This document shows, in pieces, positions 9,761-48,066 of a stretch of DNA of 59,137 bases. A program made the position numbers and the translations under genes. The stretch's first letter is position 1. Every line of letters begins with the position of its first letter. The DNA lies in contig JAEUSP010000124.1 of assembly GCA_016788565.1 (NCBI GenBank), positions 1 to 59,137 of the forward strand, written 5' to 3'. The notes below the pieces were generated by a model that saw only the letters and a list, made by a program, of their open reading frames with translations, did no database searches and was not told the origin of the DNA. The DNA is from Chlorobiota bacterium (GTDB lineage: Bacteria > Bacteroidota > Ignavibacteria > OLB7).

Positions 9761-9953
9761 AGTTGTCAGTTGTCAGTTGTTAGTGGTCAGTTGTTAGTTG
9801 CCGACAACCAGCAACTGACTCCCGATTCCCGAAACCTGATTCCAGATTCCCGACTCCCGACTCCCGACTCCCGACTCCCGACTCCCGACAACCGATTCCC
9901 GAAACCCGATTCCCGATTCCCGACAACCGATTCCCGACAACCGATTCCCGATC
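9761..9953 (+). repeat. Composite degenerate tandem repeat tract upstream of paaG
   Basis: Fills the whole paaF-paaG spacer. The first part (about 9761-9825) is built on TCAGTTGTCAGTTGT and TTAGTGGTCAG variants. The second part (about 9826-9953) is built on ATTCCCGA / ACTCCCGA / ACAACCGA units of 7-9 bp. The last unit runs directly into the paaG start codon. The same two-part order is seen before flhF and the mcrC-like gene. Confidence 0.9.
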
Positions 9954-21663: not shown

Positions 21664-21750
21664 GGGAATCGGGTTTCGGGAATCGGGAATCGGGTTTCGG
21701 GAATCAGTTGTCAGTTGTCAGTTGTCAGTTGTTGGCAACTGACTAATGAC
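21664..21750 (-). repeat. Composite degenerate tandem repeat tract upstream of flhF
   Basis: Read on the minus strand it runs CAACTGACAACTGACAACTG, then ATTCCCGAAACCCGATTCCC units, then the flhF ATG about 9 bases later. This is the same order (CAGTTGT-type tract, then CCCGATT-type tract, then start codon) as at paaG, with the first half in the complementary sense. Confidence 0.85.
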
Positions 21751-27651: not shown

Positions 27652-27771
27652 TCATTGGTCATTAGTCATTGGTAAGGAGGAAGAAGTCTTTTATTTCTCA
27701 TCTTCAATTCACTGAGTTTCGACAACCGATCCCCGACAACCGATCCCTGGCAACCGATTCCCGATTCCCCG
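27637..27771 (+). repeat. Composite degenerate repeat tract between the RNase Z-like and mcrC-like genes
   Basis: First GTCATTAGTCATTGG units (about 27637-27673), then, after about 40 bases, CGACAACCGATCCCCGACA / ATTCCCGA units (about 27716-27771), which end one base before the ATG of the mcrC-like gene. Same two-part order as at paaG and flhF. Confidence 0.85.
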
Positions 27772-38250: not shown

Positions 38251-38258
38251 CAAAGATA
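38251..38258 (-). promoter_or_regulatory. TAnnTTTG promoter element for the STAS gene
   Basis: TATCTTTG on the minus strand, followed by GCCCCCAC, with the start codon 28 bases downstream. No clear TTG was found at the expected distance. Confidence 0.55.
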
Positions 38259-38287: not shown

Positions 38288-39607
38288 TTATTCGTACCTA
38301 ACAGCATCGGCGGGAAGCAATTTGGCGGCACGGCTGGCGGGATAGATGGCGGCAACCGTAGAAAGCAGCAACGCCGTCGCGCTGATAATCACAATGTCGC
38401 TAACCCGCATCTGGACCGGAAGCGCGGAGATGATATAGACGCTGTTGTTCAGCGGTATCAGCCCGTACTGCTGCTGAAGCAGGCAGATGATAACCCCCTT
38501 TATCACCCCAGCGATTGTTCCAACCAAGCCAATCAGAAACCCTTGCCGAAGGAAGATGGAGCGAACAGCCGCATCGGTTGCCCCCATTGATTTCAGTATC
38601 CCGACATCACGCCCTTTCTCCTTCACCAACATCGTCAGCGAACCCAGCACGTTGAACACCGCCACGATGATAATCAGCGAAAGAATGATGAACGCCGCCC
38701 ACCGCTCAAGCTCCATCACCGCCAGAAGGTCACGGTGCAAATCTTGCCATGTTTCCACACGGTAGCGGTTTCCCAGCATTGCTTGCAGTTGTTCCCCCAC
38801 GGCCTGGGCTTGCTCAAGGTCCTTCACGCGCACTTCAATCCCCATCACCCCGGTTGGCACGGCGAACAGTGCGCGCGCGGTGGCAAGGTCGGTGTAGGCT
38901 CGGTAGGTGTCGTAATCTTTGTTGCTTGATTCAAACACCCCTGTCACCACCGAGCGGATGATGGTGGGTGAGGCGTACTGCGTCAGCGATTCCTCCAGCC
39001 CGCTTTGGCTTAGCAGAGAAACCGTGTCCCCCCTGCGGATGCGAAGATCGAAGCTGAGTGCGCGCCCCAAAACAATCGGGTGGGGGATCGCCGGGCTGCT
39101 GTCGGGGAGCGAGCCGGTGACCATTGCTTGCGCAAGCCCGGTTGCCGATTTGGCATCGGCGGCCCGCATCCCACGAACCTCAATCACCTTCAACTCATTG
39201 CCAAGCATCAAGGCCGAGCGTCCGTTGATGAACGGGCCAGCAGCCATCACTTCAGGGATTGCTTGAACAACCGCCACCAGCGAATCGCTCTGCTGGATTG
39301 CCCCCTCCACGGCGGTGATGCGGATGTGAGGGTCGAACCCAACCAGCAGCGATTTCACAATCCCGTTGAACCCGTTGAACACCCCCAACACACAGATCAA
39401 CGCCCACACGCCAATGTTGATGCCGCAGACCGAAATTGCCGAGATGATGGTGATAAGGCTAACCCGCTTCCGCTTGTAGATCAGCCAGCCAAAAAAGAAA
39501 ATTGCCGCGAACACATCGAACAGGACGATGCCCAGAATTGCAGCGATGATGCCAAGCTGGAGCTTCCCACGAAGGTATCGCCCAGCCACAAATTGTTCCC
39601 ATGCCAT
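38288..39607 (-). CDS. LolC/E-type ABC transporter permease
   Basis: 439 residues. Four predicted membrane helices with a large periplasmic domain between the first and second, and a C-terminal FtsX-like core (MVKEKGRDVGILKSMGATDAAVRSIFLRQGFLIGLVG) typical of the lipoprotein-releasing LolC/LolE family. It has an N-terminal extension of a second hydrophobic segment before the usual start (IAAILGIVLFDVFAAIFFFGWLIY). A LolD ATPase gene is not in the window. A promoter-like TAGTTTTG lies only 4 bases from the ATG, suggesting a leaderless mRNA. A second permease of this type is at 46673. Confidence 0.88.
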   Translation of the reverse strand: MAWEQFVAGRYLRGKLQLGIIAAILGIVLFDVFAAIFFFGWLIYKRKRVSLITIISAISVCGINIGVWALICVLGVFNGFNGIVKSLLVGFDPHIRITAVEGAIQQSDSLVAVVQAIPEVMAAGPFINGRSALMLGNELKVIEVRGMRAADAKSATGLAQAMVTGSLPDSSPAIPHPIVLGRALSFDLRIRRGDTVSLLSQSGLEESLTQYASPTIIRSVVTGVFESSNKDYDTYRAYTDLATARALFAVPTGVMGIEVRVKDLEQAQAVGEQLQAMLGNRYRVETWQDLHRDLLAVMELERWAAFIILSLIIIVAVFNVLGSLTMLVKEKGRDVGILKSMGATDAAVRSIFLRQGFLIGLVGTIAGVIKGVIICLLQQQYGLIPLNNSVYIISALPVQMRVSDIVIISATALLLSTVAAIYPASRAAKLLPADAVRYE

Positions 39608-39611
39608 GCGC

Positions 39612-39619
39612 CAAAACTA
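39612..39619 (-). promoter_or_regulatory. TAnnTTTG element abutting the LolC/E-type start codon
   Basis: TAGTTTTG on the minus strand, 4 bases before the ATG. If used as a -7 element, transcription would begin at or next to the start codon. Confidence 0.5.
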
Positions 39620-39662
39620 CGAGATTCCTTCCACGGGTACGCCATTGTTCACTCTGTAATTG

Positions 39663-39670
39663 TACTTTTG
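39663..39670 (+). promoter_or_regulatory. TAnnTTTG element abutting the glycosyltransferase start codon
   Basis: TACTTTTG, 6 bases (all C) before the ATG at 39677, with a TTG 15 bases further upstream. Predicts a leaderless or nearly leaderless mRNA. Confidence 0.5.
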
Positions 39671-39676
39671 CCCCCC

Positions 39677-40780
39677 ATGTTTCTTGAAGCCTTCCTTCTG
39701 GGCTCCTGCGCCCTGTACGCCCTGAACTATGTGGTGCTGCTGATTGGCCGGTCGCGGGTGGTTGCGCTGCCCCGCCGCCAACCAACCGAATGGCCCCACG
39801 CCACCATCCTTGTTGCTGCACGGAATGAGGAGCGGAATATCCGCGCTTGCCTGCAATCGTTGCTTGCGCAAGATTATCCGGCGGATCGTTTGCAGCTGGT
39901 TGTCATCAACGATGAATCGGAGGATGGAACCCTGCAGATTATGGAGCAGGCCGCCGCCGCATCCCCCGGAACCTTGCGCGTGGTGAGCACCGTTGCCGAC
40001 AGCACGCCAGTGCACGGCAAGGCGCGCGCGCTGGCGCAAGGGATTGACCATGCCACCGGAGAAATTTTCCTGTTCACCGATGCCGATTGCACCCCGCCGC
40101 CAACCTGGGCACGAAGCATGGTGGAGCATCTTGCCAGCAATGTTGATGTTGCCACCGGATTCACCATTGTTGGCCACAAAAAAACCTTCGGCGCGTTGCA
40201 GGCGTTGGATTGGCTGCACCTTCATGCCATTGCTTCGGCGGCGTTGGAGCTTGGGGTGTTGATGGGGTGCATCGGCAACAATTTCGCGATTCGCCGCAGC
40301 GCGTACCAACGGGTGGGGGGATACCGCGGGATGGAGTTCTCGGTCACGGAAGATTTCGCGCTGTTTGCTGCGGTGATGCGCACCGGCGGGCGGGGAATCT
40401 TTCACTGCCACCCCGATGCCGCAATGCAAACCGAGCCGTGCGCAACATTGTTCGATGTGCTTCGGCAGAAACAGCGGTGGGCGCGTGGCGGGATTGCCAT
40501 GAGCAGCAAAGGGAAAATGGTGCTGGTGATCGCCGTGCTGATGATGGCCTCCATCACCATTGCTCCGTTGTACTCACTTGCAATGTGGGGGATTGTTTGG
40601 GGTTGCAAATTCCTGTGTGATCTTGCCTTGATGATCCCCACCATGGCGCGGCTGCGGATGCTTCCGCTGCTGCGCCATTTTTTGCTGTTCGAGTTCTACT
40701 TCATTGCCCAAGCCCTTGTCACCCCGCTGCTGCTGTTCCGCCGAACTGTGGTGTGGAAAGGGAGGAGGTATCGGAGTTGA
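39677..40780 (+). CDS. Membrane-anchored family 2 glycosyltransferase
   Basis: 367 residues. An N-terminal membrane helix, then the GT2 domain: ILVAARNEERNIRACLQSL, the nucleotide-binding INDES, DXD-like FTDADCTPPP, and the acceptor motif QKQRW (RQKQRWARGG). Two or three C-terminal membrane helices follow. This layout is that of processive or membrane-linked hexose transferases acting on polysaccharide or lipid acceptors. The substrate is not deducible. Divergent from the LolC/E-type gene. An open frame beginning far upstream at 39080 is not used. Confidence 0.88.
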   Translation: MFLEAFLLGSCALYALNYVVLLIGRSRVVALPRRQPTEWPHATILVAARNEERNIRACLQSLLAQDYPADRLQLVVINDESEDGTLQIMEQAAAASPGTLRVVSTVADSTPVHGKARALAQGIDHATGEIFLFTDADCTPPPTWARSMVEHLASNVDVATGFTIVGHKKTFGALQALDWLHLHAIASAALELGVLMGCIGNNFAIRRSAYQRVGGYRGMEFSVTEDFALFAAVMRTGGRGIFHCHPDAAMQTEPCATLFDVLRQKQRWARGGIAMSSKGKMVLVIAVLMMASITIAPLYSLAMWGIVWGCKFLCDLALMIPTMARLRMLPLLRHFLLFEFYFIAQALVTPLLLFRRTVVWKGRRYRS

Positions 40781-40856
40781 GAGTTGGAATGCCGAATGTC
40801 GAATGTCAAATGTCGAATGCCGAATGAAAAATCTTGGGGTTGTCTGCGAACCTCGC

Positions 40857-40904
40857 CCTCTGCTCATGCTGAGCTTCGTCGAAGTATGAGGCGGAACCAC
40901 CGAG
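40857..40904 (-). repeat. Palindromic repeat, copy 5 of 6
   Basis: Minus-strand copy reading GGTGGTTCCGCCTCATACTTCGAC then GAAGCTCAGCATGAGCAGAGG. One arm has an inserted C relative to consensus. Confidence 0.75.
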
Positions 40905-40916
40905 CGTCGAGTGATC

Positions 40917-40953
40917 GTCATCGCTCCGACGGGTCGGGGGCTTCGACAAGGAG
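40917..40953 (+). repeat. 37-bp dispersed element, copy 2
   Basis: Matches 117-153 at 34 of 37 positions. In both places it lies within about 45 bp of a palindromic repeat, so the two elements may move or persist as a unit. Confidence 0.8.
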
Positions 40954-41038
40954 CGGCAGCAACGTGGCGGTGATGATGTGAGATGCCCAAGTGCAAGCTG
41001 CCGATGACAACCAACAACTATCCACGATTCAACCCTTC

Positions 41039-42145
41039 ATGCCTTTCCGCAAAATCTCCCTTCATGGTGCTCTGTTCCTGCTCACCTTCGCGTCGGTGAC
41101 GTTCACCTGCATGATGTACGCCGCGCCGAATCTGGATGATTTCTGGGGAAGTGTTCTGCAAGGGCTTCCGTTCAGCTTCCTGCTGATGTTGTTCCTGACG
41201 GCGCATGAGTTCGGCCACTACATTGCTGCGCGCCGCCACGGGGTTGCGGCCACGCTGCCGTTTTATTTGCCCATGCCGTTCATGCTGTTTGGCACGCTGG
41301 GGGCGGTGATCCGCATTAAGTCGCAGATACCAAGCCGGAGGGCGTTGTTCGATATTGGGGTGGCGGGGCCGTTAGCCGGGTTTGTGGTTGCGCTGGCATA
41401 TTTGATTATCGGCATGGCAACAATTCCCGGTTCGGAATCGCTCTACGCCTTTCATCCTGAGTATCGGGGGCTGGCGGTGTTGCCGGAAGGGGGGATGCAC
41501 TTCGGCGGTTTTTTGCTGTACGATCTGCTGCAATCGTTGCTGATTTCCCCGGGGCAGTTCTTCCCCCCCACCAACGAGATGTACCACTATCCATTCCTCT
41601 GCATGGGGTGGTTTGGGATGTTCGTCACCGCCATTAACCTGCTTCCGATTGGGCAGTTGGATGGCGGCCATATCCTGTACGCCCTGGTTGGCCGCCACCA
41701 GAAAACAATCTCCAAATGGGCCTTGCGAATCCTGATCCTGATTGGCTTGGGAGGCATTGGCCAGATGCTGCTTGAAGCCACCCGATTTGCCAGCGATGAC
41801 CCTTTCTACGAAACCCTCCGCACGATTTTTGGGCCGCCGATGGAGTGGGTTGCGGCCAACGCCAGTTGGTGGTTCAGCGGGTGGATGGGGTGGTTGCTGT
41901 GGGCCGGAATCCTTCGCTTTCTGATCCCCGTTGCTCACCCTTCCCTTCCCGACGAACGCCCGCTTGACCGCCGAAGAATGGTGATTGGCTGGCTCTCCAT
42001 CCTCATCTTTCTGCTCACCTTCAGCGTTGTTGGCATCTACGAACTGCCGTTGCAGCCAGCCCAGCAGCAGGCAGCACCGCCAGCGGTGGTGGTGATGAAC
42101 GGAGTTGTTCCGCCACCCAGATTATCCCCCTTTCCCGGTCCCTAA
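41039..42145 (+). CDS. Site-2 protease family (M50) membrane metalloprotease
   Basis: 368 residues. Zinc motif H56-E57-F-G-H60 in a membrane helix, and the third ligand D208 in NLLPIGQLDGGH, both complete. PAGPLAGF-type FDIGVAGPLAGF is also present, as in this family. Six or more membrane helices are predicted. It has no PDZ domain, unlike RseP. An earlier GTG start would add 16 residues of repeat-like sequence. Its last 24 bases overlap the convergent PHA-system gene. Substrate unknown. Confidence 0.9.
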   Translation: MPFRKISLHGALFLLTFASVTFTCMMYAAPNLDDFWGSVLQGLPFSFLLMLFLTAHEFGHYIAARRHGVAATLPFYLPMPFMLFGTLGAVIRIKSQIPSRRALFDIGVAGPLAGFVVALAYLIIGMATIPGSESLYAFHPEYRGLAVLPEGGMHFGGFLLYDLLQSLLISPGQFFPPTNEMYHYPFLCMGWFGMFVTAINLLPIGQLDGGHILYALVGRHQKTISKWALRILILIGLGGIGQMLLEATRFASDDPFYETLRTIFGPPMEWVAANASWWFSGWMGWLLWAGILRFLIPVAHPSLPDERPLDRRRMVIGWLSILIFLLTFSVVGIYELPLQPAQQQAAPPAVVVMNGVVPPPRLSPFPGP

Positions 42146-42412
42146 CCGTGTGTCCAATTGCCGGTTGATCTCACGCTCGATGGTGCTTTTCATCGGGGAG
42201 AGCATCAGGCCAAGATTGACTTCAAGGACTATCTGGTTTTCGGAAACTTTGATGCGGCCATCGGTGCCCGAGCTTCGGATCACCATCTCGTCGCCGTACC
42301 AATCGCAGGTGGCGTTCAGCGTTGATTTCAGTTGCCGAGCAATTCCATCCACCGAGCGTTTGGCCGATTCTTTGCCAAGTGTGTGGTAGCGTTCTATTCT
42401 GATATCGGGCAT
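42122..42412 (-). CDS. Polyhydroxyalkanoic acid system family protein (PHA_gran_rgn)
   Basis: 96 residues from the internal ATG; a longer frame adds 18 residues without pattern. It matches the family by IRIERYHTLGKESAKRSVDG, CDWYGDEMVIRSSGTDGRIKV and EVNLGLMLSPMKSTIEREIN. Members are small proteins found near PHA granule genes in some bacteria, but no such gene is in this window, so the function remains uncertain. Its 3' end overlaps the convergent M50 gene. Confidence 0.8.
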   Translation of the reverse strand: MPDIRIERYHTLGKESAKRSVDGIARQLKSTLNATCDWYGDEMVIRSSGTDGRIKVSENQIVLEVNLGLMLSPMKSTIEREINRQLDTRLGTGKGG

Positions 42413-42452
42413 GGTGTTGGTTGGTTTGTGATGTTCTGGTGAGTGGTGCTGC

Positions 42453-44432
42453 CTACCCCAACTCACGTTCCACTTTTTCCATCTCGCTGGCGGCGCGCTC
42501 CCAGGCGGCGTACAGGTCGCTTAACTTCCGGTTGGCTTCGGCAAGCTGGGCCTGCAAGTCGCGCATCTTGGTTGGGTTGCCGTAGATTTCGGGGAGTGCA
42601 AGCTGATCCTCGCAGTGGGTTCTCACTTCTTCGTTTTTGGCAATGTCCTGCTCGGTTTTCTCGATCTTCTTTTTCAGATCCTTGGTGGCTGCGTATCTGC
42701 GGTTTCGGGCCTCGGCTTCCAGCCGTTTTTGTTCTTTCCGGTCGCCGGCGGGTGGGGCTGATGTGGCGGTTGCTTCCGGTTGCTTGGTTGCCGATTTGCG
42801 GAACACATCATCAATGCTTCCGGTTTGCCGCCGCCGCAGGTAGTCTTCAATTCCCCCCAGCATCTCCTTCGTTTTCCGGTTGCGGAACTCCACGCATTTC
42901 CCCACAATCCCGTTCAAGAAATCGCGATCGTGCGAGACCATGATGATGGAGCCGTCGAAATTTATCAGTGCTTCCTTCAGCACTTTTTTGCTGGCCATGT
43001 CAAGGTGGTTGGTTGGCTCGTCGAAGATCAGCAGGTTCACCGGCTCCAGCAACAGCTTCGCCAACGCCAGCCGCGACTTCTCGCCACCGGAAAGCACACC
43101 AACATATTTGAAGACATCATCGCCATGAAACAGGAAGGCCCCCAGCAGGGTGCGGAGCTTCAGGCGGATGTCGCCGGTGGCAACTTCATCAAGGGTTTGC
43201 AGCACGGTTTTGCGTGGGTCCAGGTCCTCGGCCTGGTGCTGTGCAAAGTAGCCGATGCTGACGTTGTGGCCAATCACGCGGTTCCCCTGTTGGAACGATT
43301 CAATCCCGGCAATAATCCGGCTCATGGTGGATTTCCCTTCGCCGTTGCGACCCAAGAAGGCAATTTTTTCGCCGCGTTCCACCGCAACGTCCACGTTGTC
43401 CAGCACGTGGTTATCGCCGTACCATTTCCCCAGGCCTTGCATCTCCACCACCACGCGCCCGCTGCGTGGGGCGGGGGGGAACCGGAAGTGAACCGATTCT
43501 TCATCGCTTTCCGGCGGCTCAATCCTGTCCAACTTCTCCAGCATCTTCACCCGCGATTGCACTTGCGCGGCTTTGCTTGCCTTGTAGCGGAACCGCTCGA
43601 TGAAATCCTGCGTCTCCTCAATCATCTTCTTCTGATTTTCGTACGCGGCTTGCTGCTGTTCGCGGCGTGCGTCGCGTTCGGCAAGGTAGCGGCTGTAGTT
43701 GCCGGCGTAGGTGGTTAGCCGCCGCATGGATAGCTCGAAGGTGCGGTTGGTGATCGCATCCAGAAATGCGCGGTCGTGGGAGATGAGAAGGATTGCCCCC
43801 TGGTAGTTCTGCAGAAAGTTTTCCAGCCAGGTGAGCGACTCAATATCCAAGTGGTTGGTGGGTTCGTCCAGCATCAGCAAATCGGGCTGGCGAAGCAGAA
43901 GTTTTGCAAGCTCGATCCGCATCTGCCAGCCGCCGCTGAACGTGGCGCAACTGCGGTCGAAGTCTTTCACCTCAAACCCAAGCCCCATCAAAATTTTCTC
44001 CACCTCACCTTCCAGTGCAAAGCCGTTCATGGCTTCGAACCGGTGTTGCAGTTCCCCCAGGTCATCAAGCAGGGAATGGTATTCTGGCGTTCCGGCTTCG
44101 TCGGCGCGTCGGGCAACTTCTTCGGTGGTTTCGATGATCTCCTGCTCAAGTTCCTTCGCCTCGCTGAAGGCTTTCATCACTTCGTCGCGGACGCTTGCAT
44201 CGCTCAGGACCACCCCTTCCTGTGGAAGGTAGGCCACAACAGCATGGCGGCTGGTTTGCACCTGGCCCGATTCGGGGGCTTGCAGGCGCATCAAGATTTT
44301 CATCAGGGTGGATTTCCCCGCACCGTTTGCCCCCACCAACCCAACCCGGTCGCCCGGGCGGATCATGAAGCTGACATCGCGGAACAGATACTCGCCGCCG
44401 AACTGGACACTAACAACGTTGGTTGCAATCAT
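42453..44432 (-). CDS. ABC-F family ATPase
   Basis: 659 residues with two ABC domains: Walker A GANGAGKST and GRNGEGKST, signatures FSGGW and LSGGEKS, and Walker B/H-loop LMLDEPTNHLD / LLIFDEPTNHLD. The P-site tRNA-interaction linker between them (YENQKKMIEETQDFIERFR) is present, and a C-terminal charged coiled-coil extension (about 540-659) resembles that of Uup/YdiF types. ABC-F proteins act on ribosomes to relieve stalls or regulate translation and have no membrane part. A TATCTTCG element lies 5 bases before the ATG. Confidence 0.93.
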   Translation of the reverse strand: MIATNVVSVQFGGEYLFRDVSFMIRPGDRVGLVGANGAGKSTLMKILMRLQAPESGQVQTSRHAVVAYLPQEGVVLSDASVRDEVMKAFSEAKELEQEIIETTEEVARRADEAGTPEYHSLLDDLGELQHRFEAMNGFALEGEVEKILMGLGFEVKDFDRSCATFSGGWQMRIELAKLLLRQPDLLMLDEPTNHLDIESLTWLENFLQNYQGAILLISHDRAFLDAITNRTFELSMRRLTTYAGNYSRYLAERDARREQQQAAYENQKKMIEETQDFIERFRYKASKAAQVQSRVKMLEKLDRIEPPESDEESVHFRFPPAPRSGRVVVEMQGLGKWYGDNHVLDNVDVAVERGEKIAFLGRNGEGKSTMSRIIAGIESFQQGNRVIGHNVSIGYFAQHQAEDLDPRKTVLQTLDEVATGDIRLKLRTLLGAFLFHGDDVFKYVGVLSGGEKSRLALAKLLLEPVNLLIFDEPTNHLDMASKKVLKEALINFDGSIIMVSHDRDFLNGIVGKCVEFRNRKTKEMLGGIEDYLRRRQTGSIDDVFRKSATKQPEATATSAPPAGDRKEQKRLEAEARNRRYAATKDLKKKIEKTEQDIAKNEEVRTHCEDQLALPEIYGNPTKMRDLQAQLAEANRKLSDLYAAWERAASEMEKVERELG

Positions 44433-44437
44433 GGCCG

Positions 44438-44445
44438 CGAAGATA
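44438..44445 (-). promoter_or_regulatory. TAnnTTTG-like element abutting the ABC-F start codon
   Basis: TATCTTCG (one mismatch) on the minus strand, 5 bases from the ATG. Confidence 0.45.
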
Positions 44446-44496
44446 CGAAGCGGGGAAGAGGAGGGGAGGAAACGGGATGTTGAGAGATGTGAGGGA

Positions 44497-44746
44497 GGGC
44501 AGTTGTCAGTTGTCAGTGGTCAGTGGTCAGTTGTCAGTGGTGAGTTTCCGGCTTTGTCTTCATTTCACTCTTCCCATTTCACTCTTCACTCTTCGCTTCG
44601 GCTCCCTCTCCCACCCGCCAAATGTGAGGCAAGCAGCAGTGGCATCAGCTTGGGAGAGGGCGGGGGAGGTCAGTTGTCAGTTGTCAGTGGTGAGTTCCCT
44701 GTTCTTTCTTCATCTCACTCTTCACTCTTCACTCTTCACTCTTCTT
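44497..44746 (+). repeat. Duplicated composite repeat tract upstream of the DnaQ-GIY-YIG gene
   Basis: Two rounds of the same arrangement: CAGTTGTCAGTGGTCAG units followed by TCTTCATTTCACTCTTC units (about 44497-44600), then CAGTTGTCAGTTGTCAGTGG followed by CTCACTCTTCACTCTTC units (about 44668-44746). The part between (GCTCCCTCTCCCACCC ... GGGAGAGGGCGGGGG) also has inverted GGGAGAGGG-type blocks. No gene is seen in 44446-44809. Confidence 0.85.
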
Positions 44747-44809
44747 TTCCCCGCGAAATATGGAGTATATTTTCTCATCTCAATCAGGGCGGCCACAGCG
44801 TTTATCCCC

Positions 44810-46480
44810 ATGCAGCAACTACTTTCTGACATCCCTTTTGTTGTCACCGACATCGAAACCACCGGGCTATCGCCGGAGCGGAATCGGGTGACGGAGGTGG
44901 CGTGCGTCAGCTTGTTGGATGGTGAGATAGCCGCCCGCAGCCGCACGTTGGTGAACCCCGAGCAGTTCATCCCGCAGCAAATCCAACAGATGACCGGGAT
45001 CACCAACGCAATGGTGTTGGCCGCGCCAAAAGGGGGGGAAATCTTCCCGGAGGTTCGTTCGTGGTTTCCTGATGGGGCGGTGTTTGTTGCCCACAATGCC
45101 CAGTTCGATCACAACTTTCTGCAGGCCAGTTTTGGCCGCTACGGGCTGTCGCCGTTACGCAATTCCGTGGTTTGCACAATCCGCCTGGCCAAGCGGCTGA
45201 TGCCCAAACAGAAAGGATATTCGCTGGGGAATCTTGCGGGATATTTCGGCATTAAAATTCGCGGCCGCCACACTGCGTTGGGCGATGCCGAAGCAACCGC
45301 ACGGCTGCTTGCGGAGTTTTTGGATATGCTGCAAGAGGAGCATGGCTGCGAGACAGTGGAGGATGTTCTGGCGTTCCAGCGGCGGACGATTGGTGCCTTC
45401 CGCGAAACCCCGCGCCACGTCAGCAACCTGGGGCCGAACATCACATCGCTTCCGTCGGGGTCGGGGGTCTATCGGATGCTGGACCGCAGCGGCCAGGTGC
45501 TCTACATCGGCAAGGCAAAACATCTGCGCGACCGTGTGGGAAGTTACTTCCGGCCCAGCGCGGAGCACACCAAGAAAATTCAGGAGATGGTGAGACGGGT
45601 GCGCAACGTGGAGGCAATCCCGACCGGAAGCGAGCTTGAGGCGTTGTTGCTGGAAACGCGGTTAATCAAGGAGCATCTTCCCCCGTACAACACCGCGCTG
45701 AAGCGGTTCCGCCGCCATGCGTTCATTCGGCTGAGTCTTCACGATCCCTTTCCGGCGGTGGGGCTTGCAACCGAAATCAGTGCCGACGGAGCCGAATACT
45801 TCGGCCCCTTCCGCAACCGCGAATCTGCCGAAGCGGTGTTGGATACCATCACGCGGTTGTTCCAGCTACGCAAGTGCCAGGAGATGCCAACCCCCGACCC
45901 CGCATTCCGGCCATGTTTCTACCACCAGATTGCACGGTGTGGCGCGCCCTGTTCGGTTCAGCAATCGTTGGGTGAGTACCAGCAGGAGGTTCACCGTGTG
46001 CGGGCGTTTCTTTCGGGGGCGGAAGATGGAATTTTACGCAGGATGGAGCGGGCAATGGAGCAGAGCGCCGAGGAGTTGAAGTTCGAGGAAGCCGCGATCC
46101 TTCGCGACCGATTAACCGAGCTTCAGCGGATTTTCAGCAGTGGCGAGCGTGTGGCCGATAGCATCAACGCCAACAATATGCTTGTTCTGCTTCCAGCCGA
46201 AGAGTTTGGAAAGCGGCATCTGTTTTTTATCCGCCATGGCCGCCTTGCTGGGCGCCTGCTTGTTGGCGGGCGGCTTCCCGAATCGGCGATACGCAAACAG
46301 CTGTCGCGCCTTTTTTTCACCGCCGAACCGCTTCCGCTGCAAATAGGAAAATTGGAGATTGAGGAAATGAGAATCGTGGCCAGCTACCTGTTCCAACAAC
46401 GTGAGTTGGGGACATTCGTTCGGATTACCGGGGCCGAGGGGGTAGATGCGCTTATTGGCAAGTTGTTGGAGCAGGGGTGA
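44810..46480 (+). CDS. DnaQ-type exonuclease / GIY-YIG (UvrC N-terminal) fusion nuclease
   Basis: 556 residues. N-terminal DEDDh exonuclease (about 8-170): D14-I-E16-T-T, HNAQFDHNF and GRHTALGDAEAT. Residues about 218-300 carry a GIY-YIG domain (GVYRMLDRSGQVLYIGKAKHLRDRV) with the glutamate in GSELEALLLE. Cysteines (KCQEM, ARCGAPC) as in UvrC and a UVR-like region (about 400-440) follow. The UvrC RNase H and HhH parts are missing. This architecture is known in mycobacteria and other phyla (Cho/DnaQ fusions) and probably trims or nicks damaged DNA. Confidence 0.9.
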   Translation: MQQLLSDIPFVVTDIETTGLSPERNRVTEVACVSLLDGEIAARSRTLVNPEQFIPQQIQQMTGITNAMVLAAPKGGEIFPEVRSWFPDGAVFVAHNAQFDHNFLQASFGRYGLSPLRNSVVCTIRLAKRLMPKQKGYSLGNLAGYFGIKIRGRHTALGDAEATARLLAEFLDMLQEEHGCETVEDVLAFQRRTIGAFRETPRHVSNLGPNITSLPSGSGVYRMLDRSGQVLYIGKAKHLRDRVGSYFRPSAEHTKKIQEMVRRVRNVEAIPTGSELEALLLETRLIKEHLPPYNTALKRFRRHAFIRLSLHDPFPAVGLATEISADGAEYFGPFRNRESAEAVLDTITRLFQLRKCQEMPTPDPAFRPCFYHQIARCGAPCSVQQSLGEYQQEVHRVRAFLSGAEDGILRRMERAMEQSAEELKFEEAAILRDRLTELQRIFSSGERVADSINANNMLVLLPAEEFGKRHLFFIRHGRLAGRLLVGGRLPESAIRKQLSRLFFTAEPLPLQIGKLEIEEMRIVASYLFQQRELGTFVRITGAEGVDALIGKLLEQG

Positions 46481-46554
46481 TTGCCAAATGTCGAATCAAG
46501 AATGGGGAATTTTGGAGTTGTCTCCGAATCTTACTCTGCCAACCACGTCCCACG

Positions 46555-46675
46555 ATTCCCGACAAAAGTCATTGGTTATTGGTCATTGGTCATTAGTCAT
46601 TGGTCAGAAGCCCGATTCCCGTCCCCCGATTCCCGTCCCCCGATTCCCGTCCCCCGATTCCCGTCCCCCGACTCA
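46555..46675 (+). repeat. Composite degenerate repeat tract at the convergent gene ends
   Basis: GTCATTGGTTATTGGTCATTGG units (about 46567-46605), then CCCGATTCCCGTCCCCCGATT units (about 46611-46672). It follows the DnaQ fusion gene and overlaps the stop codon area of the LolC/E-type gene on the other strand. Same two-part order as at paaG, flhF and the mcrC-like gene, but without a start codon at its end. Confidence 0.85.
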
Positions 46676-47911
46676 CCGAAACCGCAACGCATCCACCGGA
46701 CGAAAACGGGAGGCAACATAAGCGGGGAAGAGAGTTGAGAGAAGGCAGAGCACCACCGAAACAGAGATCACAATCAGGTAGTGCCACGGGTTCAGCCAGA
46801 CCGGAACGGCATCAATGAAGTAGATATCAGCATCCAGCCGGATGAACTGGAAGTGTTGCTGTGCCAGGGTGAACGCCAGTGAAATCAAGCAACCCAACGC
46901 CGTCCCGACACCCCCGATCAGCAACCCTTGCCCCACAAACACCGACATGATCCCCCCCGGCCCAGCACCCAGCGTTGTCAGCACGCCGATGGACTCCGTT
47001 TTCTCCAAAATCATAATCAGCAATGTGGAAACGATGTTGAAGACCGCTACAATGCTGATAAGGGTCAGCACAATCGGAATCGGGACCCGCTGAAGATCGA
47101 GCCACGCAAAAAACGGGGCGAAGATGTCGTAGAACGTCTGCGAAAAATGGGGGTAGCCCAGCGCGACGCTGATGCGTTGGGCGGTTTCGGCAACGCTATC
47201 CACGTCGCGGATCAGGATGTCGTAGCCGGTAATCTGGTCATCCTGGTATTTCCACAATCGCTGCGCGGTGGCCAGCGAGGTGTAGGTGTAGATGTCGTCA
47301 TGCTCGGCCATTCCGGTGCGGTACAGCCCGCCCACCACAAACTGCTCAATCCCCGCGGGATTATCGGGGCTTGGGGTCCCGTTTGGGGCGAACACCAGAG
47401 CGGTGTCCCCCGGTTTCAGTTTCAGTTTTGCCCCAAGCCGCTGGCCAATCACGATGGTTGGAAGCCCGCCGGGGGCTGGTTCCGGCAGGTCAAATGTTCC
47501 GGCAACGATTCTGTTCCGAATGGTTGAGAGGTCGGTGGCGGCATCAATCCCCTTCACCAAAATCCCCTCCAGCCCGGCTTTAGACCGGATGATCCCCTCG
47601 CGCCGAACAAACGGACTGACGTTGGTGACTTGGGGGTCCAGCGTTGGCAGGTTGGCAACAACGTCGCGGTATCCGGTTAGGGGGCTGCCTTGTTTGATGG
47701 AGGTAACTTCGATATGCCCCATGAAGGAGATCATGTTGCTGCGGAGGGTTTTGTCGAAGCCATCCAAAATGGCCAGCGAGACCAGGAGTGCGGTGGTTCC
47801 GAACATCACGCCAAGCGTGGCAATCAGGGTGATAAAGCCGATAAATCGGTTACGGCGGGCGGGGGCAAGGTAGCGTCGGGCAATGAATAAGGCCCAAGTT
47901 CGGAAGTGCAT
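46673..47911 (-). CDS. LolC/E-type ABC transporter permease (second paralogue)
   Basis: 412 residues, the usual LolC/E length. N-terminal helix region with FIARRYLAPARRNRFIGFITLI (start of LolC/E), large periplasmic domain, and C-terminal FtsX-like core (MILEKTESIGVLTTLGAGPGGI) with helices ending RPVDALRFR. It pairs functionally with a LolD ATPase elsewhere and possibly with the permease at 38288 to form a LolCDE complex. A TATCTTGG element lies 4 bases before its ATG. Confidence 0.9.
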   Translation of the reverse strand: MHFRTWALFIARRYLAPARRNRFIGFITLIATLGVMFGTTALLVSLAILDGFDKTLRSNMISFMGHIEVTSIKQGSPLTGYRDVVANLPTLDPQVTNVSPFVRREGIIRSKAGLEGILVKGIDAATDLSTIRNRIVAGTFDLPEPAPGGLPTIVIGQRLGAKLKLKPGDTALVFAPNGTPSPDNPAGIEQFVVGGLYRTGMAEHDDIYTYTSLATAQRLWKYQDDQITGYDILIRDVDSVAETAQRISVALGYPHFSQTFYDIFAPFFAWLDLQRVPIPIVLTLISIVAVFNIVSTLLIMILEKTESIGVLTTLGAGPGGIMSVFVGQGLLIGGVGTALGCLISLAFTLAQQHFQFIRLDADIYFIDAVPVWLNPWHYLIVISVSVVLCLLSTLFPAYVASRFRPVDALRFR

Positions 47912-47915
47912 GGCC

Positions 47916-47923
47916 CCAAGATA
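47916..47923 (-). promoter_or_regulatory. TAnnTTTG-like element abutting the second LolC/E start codon
   Basis: TATCTTGG (one mismatch) on the minus strand, 4 bases from the ATG. Confidence 0.4.
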
Positions 47924-48058: not shown

Positions 48059-48066
48059 TATCTTTG
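48059..48066 (+). promoter_or_regulatory. TAnnTTTG promoter element of the citrate synthase gene
   Basis: TATCTTTG, 57 bases before the ATG. The -33 region is unclear; a TTCGG at 48028 is too far upstream for the usual spacing. Confidence 0.5.

Follow-up and report, generated by a model that had tools for sequence, protein, structure and literature searches.

Predicted leaderless mRNAs with start-proximal -7 elements in a little-studied relative of Bacteroides

Leaderless mRNAs are already known in Bacteroidota, where studies that map transcript starts treat them as a small minority (4-13%). In Bacteroides thetaiotaomicron 3.7% of leaders are under 10 nt (PMC7366714), in Flavobacterium johnsoniae 13% are 10 nt or less (PMC6847099) and in F. 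psychrophilum 5.5% of mRNAs are leaderless (PMC9723704), while leaders in these bacteria are commonly 23-33 nt (PMC6847099, PMC7366714, PMC9723704). The Bacteroidota type of sigma factor, which lacks region 1.1, reads the -7 element TAnnTTTG (PMC6847099). In mycobacteria, the 5' end of such mRNAs is the start codon itself, and an ATG or GTG at the 5' terminus is both necessary and sufficient (PMC4633059). A 2011 survey of 953 bacterial genomes took a TA signal ~10-12 bases before the start as the sign of leaderless genes, and reported such TA-led genes from just one of its 37 Bacteroidetes/Chlorobi genomes, where they made up 2.4% of genes (PMC3160421).

Here we analyse a stretch of 59,137 nucleotides (the window) from a Chlorobiota bacterium, which is a new lineage for this known kind of gene start. 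Like the three Bacteroidota above, the host has a TAnnTTTG-type -7 element, the same kind of sigma factor and a predicted minority of mRNAs without a leader; unlike those species, whose transcripts have been mapped, it is known from sequence alone. What is new relative to them is that TTCG is as regular a form of the element as TTTG, that the distance from promoter to ATG is cleanly and sharply bimodal, and that particular housekeeping genes are shown to keep the arrangement from one genus to another. Compared with mycobacteria, the mRNA 5' end would likewise lie at the start codon, as predicted from promoter position; however, the sigma factor and the promoter element are different, and leaderless genes, a major feature of mycobacterial genomes, amount to ~2.5% of promoter-proximal genes in the host (strict motif). 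The signal in the 2011 survey was TANNNT whereas that of the host is TAnnTTYG, and both contain TA and lie near the start codon.

Four start-proximal octamers in the window

We propose that the octamers immediately before four genes of the window are housekeeping -7 elements, and that the corresponding mRNAs would start at or near the start codon, be leaderless or carry a leader of a few bases, and be translated from a 5'-terminal AUG (probability about 0.85). The predicted leaderless state is firm for the first LolC/E-type gene and the GT2 gene, likely for the ABC-F gene and uncertain for the second LolC/E-type gene.

The initial annotation had reported TAnnTTTG-like octamers 4-6 bases before the ATG of these genes, and we found all four, at gaps of 4, 6, 5 and 4 bases (Table 1). 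Two are exact matches to TAnnTTTG, and the other two differ from it at one base (TTCG and TTGG). All four start codons are ATG, at 39607 (-), 39677 (+), 44432 (-) and 47911 (-); the coordinates given earlier for the three minus-strand genes were their low (3') ends. The genes had also been said to lack a Shine-Dalgarno (SD) sequence, and indeed no SD-like sequence lies at the normal distance from any of the four starts, because the -7 element fills that place. The first LolC/E-type gene and the GT2 gene are divergent, and the 69 bases between their ATGs leave no room for leaders. An Rfam search of the window gave no match, so a known leader RNA is not involved.

Table 1. Start-proximal -7 elements, their genes and leadered elements for comparison (window coordinates; gap, bases between element and start codon).
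Feature	Position	Strand	Remarks
-7 element of LolC/E gene, TAGTTTTG	39612..39619	-	gap 4 to ATG (39605-39607); gap 4 kept in three relatives
LolC/E-type lipoprotein-release permease gene, predicted leaderless	38288..39607	-	FtsX and MacB_PCD domains; N-terminus conserved from residue 1; start context TAGTTTTG-gcgc-ATG
-7 element of GT2 gene, TACTTTTG	39663..39670	+	gap 6 to ATG (39677-39679); ortholog gaps 6, 8 and 10
GT2 glycosyltransferase gene, predicted leader 0-2 nt	39677..40780	+	Glycos_transf_2; start context TACTTTTG-cccccc-ATG
Divergent intergenic region, 69 bp, two predicted back-to-back core promoters (LolC/E and GT2)	39608..39676		sequence; alignment with congener
-7 element of ABC-F gene, TATCTTCG	44438..44445	-	gap 5 to ATG (44430-44432); TTCG variant; gap 4 in congener
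ABC-F ATPase gene, likely leaderless	42453..44432	-	domain and model matches; start conserved across class; start context TATCTTCG-cggcc-ATG
Possible -7 element of second LolC/E gene, TATCTTGG	47916..47923	-	gap 4 to ATG (47909-47911); TTGG weakly enriched
Second LolC/E-type permease gene, leaderless status uncertain	46673..47911	-	domain and model matches; start context TATCTTGG-ggcc-ATG
Comparison: leadered -7 element of STAS-domain gene, TATCTTTG	38251..38258	-	gap 28
Comparison: leadered -7 element of citrate synthase gene, TATCTTTG	48059..48066	+	gap 57; AGGAG also before ATG

The top NCBIfam model for the first LolC/E protein is lolCE, at a score under that model's cut-off. This protein has ~40 additional N-terminal residues ahead of the part common to LolC/E proteins, an extension that is kept in all three relatives described below (G001, G002 and G004). 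Here 7 kb separate the two LolC/E-type genes, and they are separate throughout the family, each with its own promoter region, whereas in most other genomes of the class the pair is adjacent in tandem.

The -7 element and its distance to gene starts

To place these four genes in their genomic context, we used a sample of 1.63 Mb (~1/3 of the genome; GC 55%) from the host assembly (4.58 Mb, 137 contigs), made up of stretches picked without regard to the motif. Genes were called with a coding-score method that is blind to upstream signals, and starts outside the window are computed ones. In the first 1.26-Mb part of this sample, TANNTTTG and TANNTTCG were 9.1-fold and 7.1-fold commoner upstream of genes than in coding DNA, and TANNTTGG was weakly enriched (1.9-fold). 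The host -7 element is thus TAnnTTYG, often with a G before it and a C after it (consensus g-TAnnTTYG-C). Because TTCG is strongly enriched upstream of genes, the TATCTTCG of the ABC-F gene is a regular form of the element, and TTCG is a regular -7 variant in this genome; because TTGG is weakly enriched, the TATCTTGG of the second LolC/E-type gene is a weak, marginal case.

The sigma factor is consistent with this element. Only one protein in the genome contains region 1.2 of primary-type sigma factors; it has 287 residues and shares 73% identity along its entire length with sigma-70 family proteins of Hymenobacter, and region 1.1 is absent genome-wide. By its sequence, the primary sigma factor of the host is of the Bacteroidota type, the kind that reads TAnnTTTG elsewhere. 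The -33 element gave a weak signal, with TTG at a spacer of 19-21 bases in 9-11 of 135 cases (mean expected, 3.5); TTTG, the -33 element of Bacteroidota sigma-A promoters, was barely above background 19-21 bases upstream, and no -33 element was evident in the four window promoters.

A histogram of the motif relative to the start codon, which the initial annotation had suggested as a check, has the peak predicted at 4-6 bases. Of 786 promoter-proximal genes, 20 have TAnnTTYG at gap 4-8 (17 when this window is left out), whereas the way the motif itself is spread over 0-141 bases predicts 5.5 (Poisson P 1.5e-6). There are no cases at gaps 0-3, and 5, 9, 4, 1 and 1 at gaps 4, 5, 6, 7 and 8. Gaps 9-24 are near-empty (3 observed, 17.6 expected; P 2.5e-5), and beyond them lies a broad leadered class at gaps of 25 to 140. 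The near-empty zone suggests that leaders of ~5-18 nt are avoided. Genes with a predicted leaderless mRNA are a small class and not the general rule in this genome, and most detected -7 elements imply a leader. An SD peak is present for a minority of genes in the sample, and we found no 16S rRNA gene in the assembly when searching for an anti-SD tail. In the same sample, C is strongly favoured before ATG (54% at -2 and 42% at -1), giving the typical start context aaCCATG.

We considered whether chance alone could account for the four octamers, which come from a short, hand-picked list. The window was chosen by a reader and is richer in cases (3) than the remainder (17 of 756 genes), and a plain genome-wide count of TANNTTTGN(3-7)ATG (104) is near that of the reversed pattern (83). 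This plain count is uninformative because ATG triplets occur everywhere, and the peak is visible only with real gene starts. A column shuffle that keeps positional base composition gave 1.3 +/- 1.1 cases at gap 4-8 (maximum 5 in 300), where 21 were observed without the distance filter, and a dinucleotide shuffle gave 1.6. With 17-18 cases outside the window against ~1.3 under shuffling, and with the arrangement conserved in orthologs (below), we give chance next to no credence for the four octamers as a group, while it could still hold for TATCTTGG alone. No other one-mismatch motif had a peak at gap 4-8.

The same histogram bears on whether the octamer is a translation signal, that is, an AU-rich element of the ribosome-binding or S1/Kozak-like kind within a leadered mRNA, instead of a promoter. 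The octamer does occupy the SD position, and Bacteroidota mostly lack SD sequences and rely on other start-proximal signals (PMC6847099). However, the octamer is also enriched 25-140 bases upstream of other genes with a matching flank preference: G precedes it in 10 of 20 ATG-proximal and 50 of 113 distal copies, and C follows it in 14 of 20 and 71 of 113, such that proximal and distal copies share one extended context. A translation signal also leaves the near-empty zone unaccounted for, and an element found near the ATG of only ~2.5% of promoter-proximal genes is no general start signal. We thus regard a translation signal as very unlikely and favour the -7 element.

The genes at gap 4-8 in the sample are mostly housekeeping genes (products: ribonuclease HI, ScpA, the exonuclease VII large subunit, Fur/PerR-type regulator, ECF sigma factor, rhomboid-like protease, acyl-CoA ligase, SrkA-like kinase and LCP-type protein, among others). 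Thirteen of the 20 are divergent from their neighbour, compared with 257 of 766 other genes (P 0.007). They start with ATG in 18 of 20 cases, a small difference from the 602 of 766 other promoter-proximal genes, and the two that start with TTG may be wrong start calls.

Conservation in relatives

We compared the host with one relative of the same genus (G001) and two of the same family in other genera (G002 and G004). In the LolC/E orthologs of all three, the element lies exactly 4 bases before the ATG, as TAGCTTTG in G001 (94% protein identity), TAGCTTTG (57%) and TACCTTTG (56%). The distance to the divergent GT2 gene varies (~180 and 281 bases in G002 and G004, the more distant pair), although the LolC/E gap is constant, which indicates that the element is anchored to the ATG of its own gene.

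This conservation extends to other genes. For 17 genes with the arrangement (14 of them outside the window), we looked for a strict element 3-10 bases before the orthologous ATG, and found it in 15 of 17 orthologs in G001, 5 of 16 in G002 and 7 of 15 in G004. The background for starts in general is 4 of 248 (~1.6%) in G002 and G004; at an assumed background of 3%, binomial P values are 1.8e-21, 8e-5 and 1.1e-7, respectively. Many other orthologs retain a degenerate TAnnTT at the same place. Within the genus, core bases of the element are 96% identical, versus 69% for the 30 bases upstream (P 8e-9). In small samples of G002 and G004, 4 of 23 elements were at gap 3-5.

ABC-F is an exception, as its element is kept within the genus only; it was sought in the other genera and not found. 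The element of the second LolC/E-type gene is identical in the congener and appears as TATACTGG at gap 6 in G002, and none was seen in G004. The TATCTTGG case gains some weight from a dihydroorotate dehydrogenase electron-transfer-like gene, whose orthologs in G002 and G004 both carry TAAATTGG at gap 8.

Orthologs also speak to the possibility that these are ordinary leadered promoters whose ATG has been misassigned, with the true start codons further downstream. Start prediction is error-prone, and a few of the 20 sampled cases are perhaps wrong calls. However, alignments of the LolC/E, GT2 and ABC-F orthologs begin at residue 1-3 and show conserved N-termini, the element's distance to the assigned ATG is preserved, and random errors would populate the gaps of 9-24 bases that are near-empty. 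We consider misassignment extremely unlikely for this class. A ribosome-binding motif and misassigned starts were both rejected on position and conservation, leaving promoters that reach the start codon as the preferred reading.

That a start-tied element is conserved over orthologs of roughly 50-80% identity argues that selection maintains the arrangement in particular genes. A bolder proposal, which we hold only tentatively and think rather doubtful as a whole, is that leaderlessness is a selected, inherited trait of a fixed housekeeping set in this family (LolC/E, GT2, ScpA, RNase HI, rhomboid protease, ECF sigma factor and an MFS transporter), that leaders of ~5-18 nt are avoided such that two discrete modes of initiation exist, and that translation of the set could be regulated jointly, for instance by the state of the ribosome or in response to stress.

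Elsewhere in the class, a genome of another family (G018) likewise has a peak of TANNTTTG at gap 3-7, and a genome of a third family (G033, sample L245-L254) hardly uses it upstream of genes. The G033 sample has a few TATAAT and a clear SD peak, and promoter type may thus differ within the class. The G001 record JADZEY010000106.1 (L061) is titled Armatimonadetes bacterium SJ842, yet it belongs to the same genus as the host; the host genome has a Bacteroidota-type sigma factor, and the title looks mislabelled.

Proposed mode of initiation

In the mechanism we propose, the octamers would act as -7 elements of the housekeeping promoter in a Bacteroidota-type genome, and RNA polymerase with the 287-residue sigma factor would start ~5 bases downstream of the element's last G. 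The start would fall at the A of the start codon or at most ~4 bases from it, with the exact base placed by analogy to other Bacteroidota. The -7 element of F. johnsoniae spans -12 to -5 (PMC6847099), and on this spacing a gap of 4 would put the start on the A of the ATG and a gap of 6 would give a ~2-base leader. The earlier claim that the transcript would start at the ATG is supported by the peak, the orthologs and the sigma type, with the qualification that at a gap of 6 a leader of ~2 nt would remain. The resulting mRNA would have no leader or one of a few bases only. Its translation would begin at the 5'-terminal AUG with neither SD nor leader contacts, probably by intact 70S ribosomes carrying initiator tRNA (a route known from other bacteria). 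Any of the genes may have a second, leadered promoter further upstream.

For a few percent of genes in this little-studied Bacteroides relative, the first base of the message thus very probably coincides with the AUG or lies no more than a few bases from it. When starts are annotated and promoters predicted in this group, a practical rule is to look for TAnnTTYG at 4-8 bases.

The window has two further features of note. The stretch 44810-46480 encodes a fusion of a DnaQ-like exonuclease with a GIY-YIG domain and a UVR motif (compare UvrC/Cho-like proteins). Intergenic repeats with the unit CCGATTCCCG occur at 9822-9950, 21677-21693, 27754-27763 and 46612-46663 (13 exact copies, 0.2 expected), and CAGTTGTCAGTGGTCAGT-like runs are found near 44500-44550 and 44670-44690.
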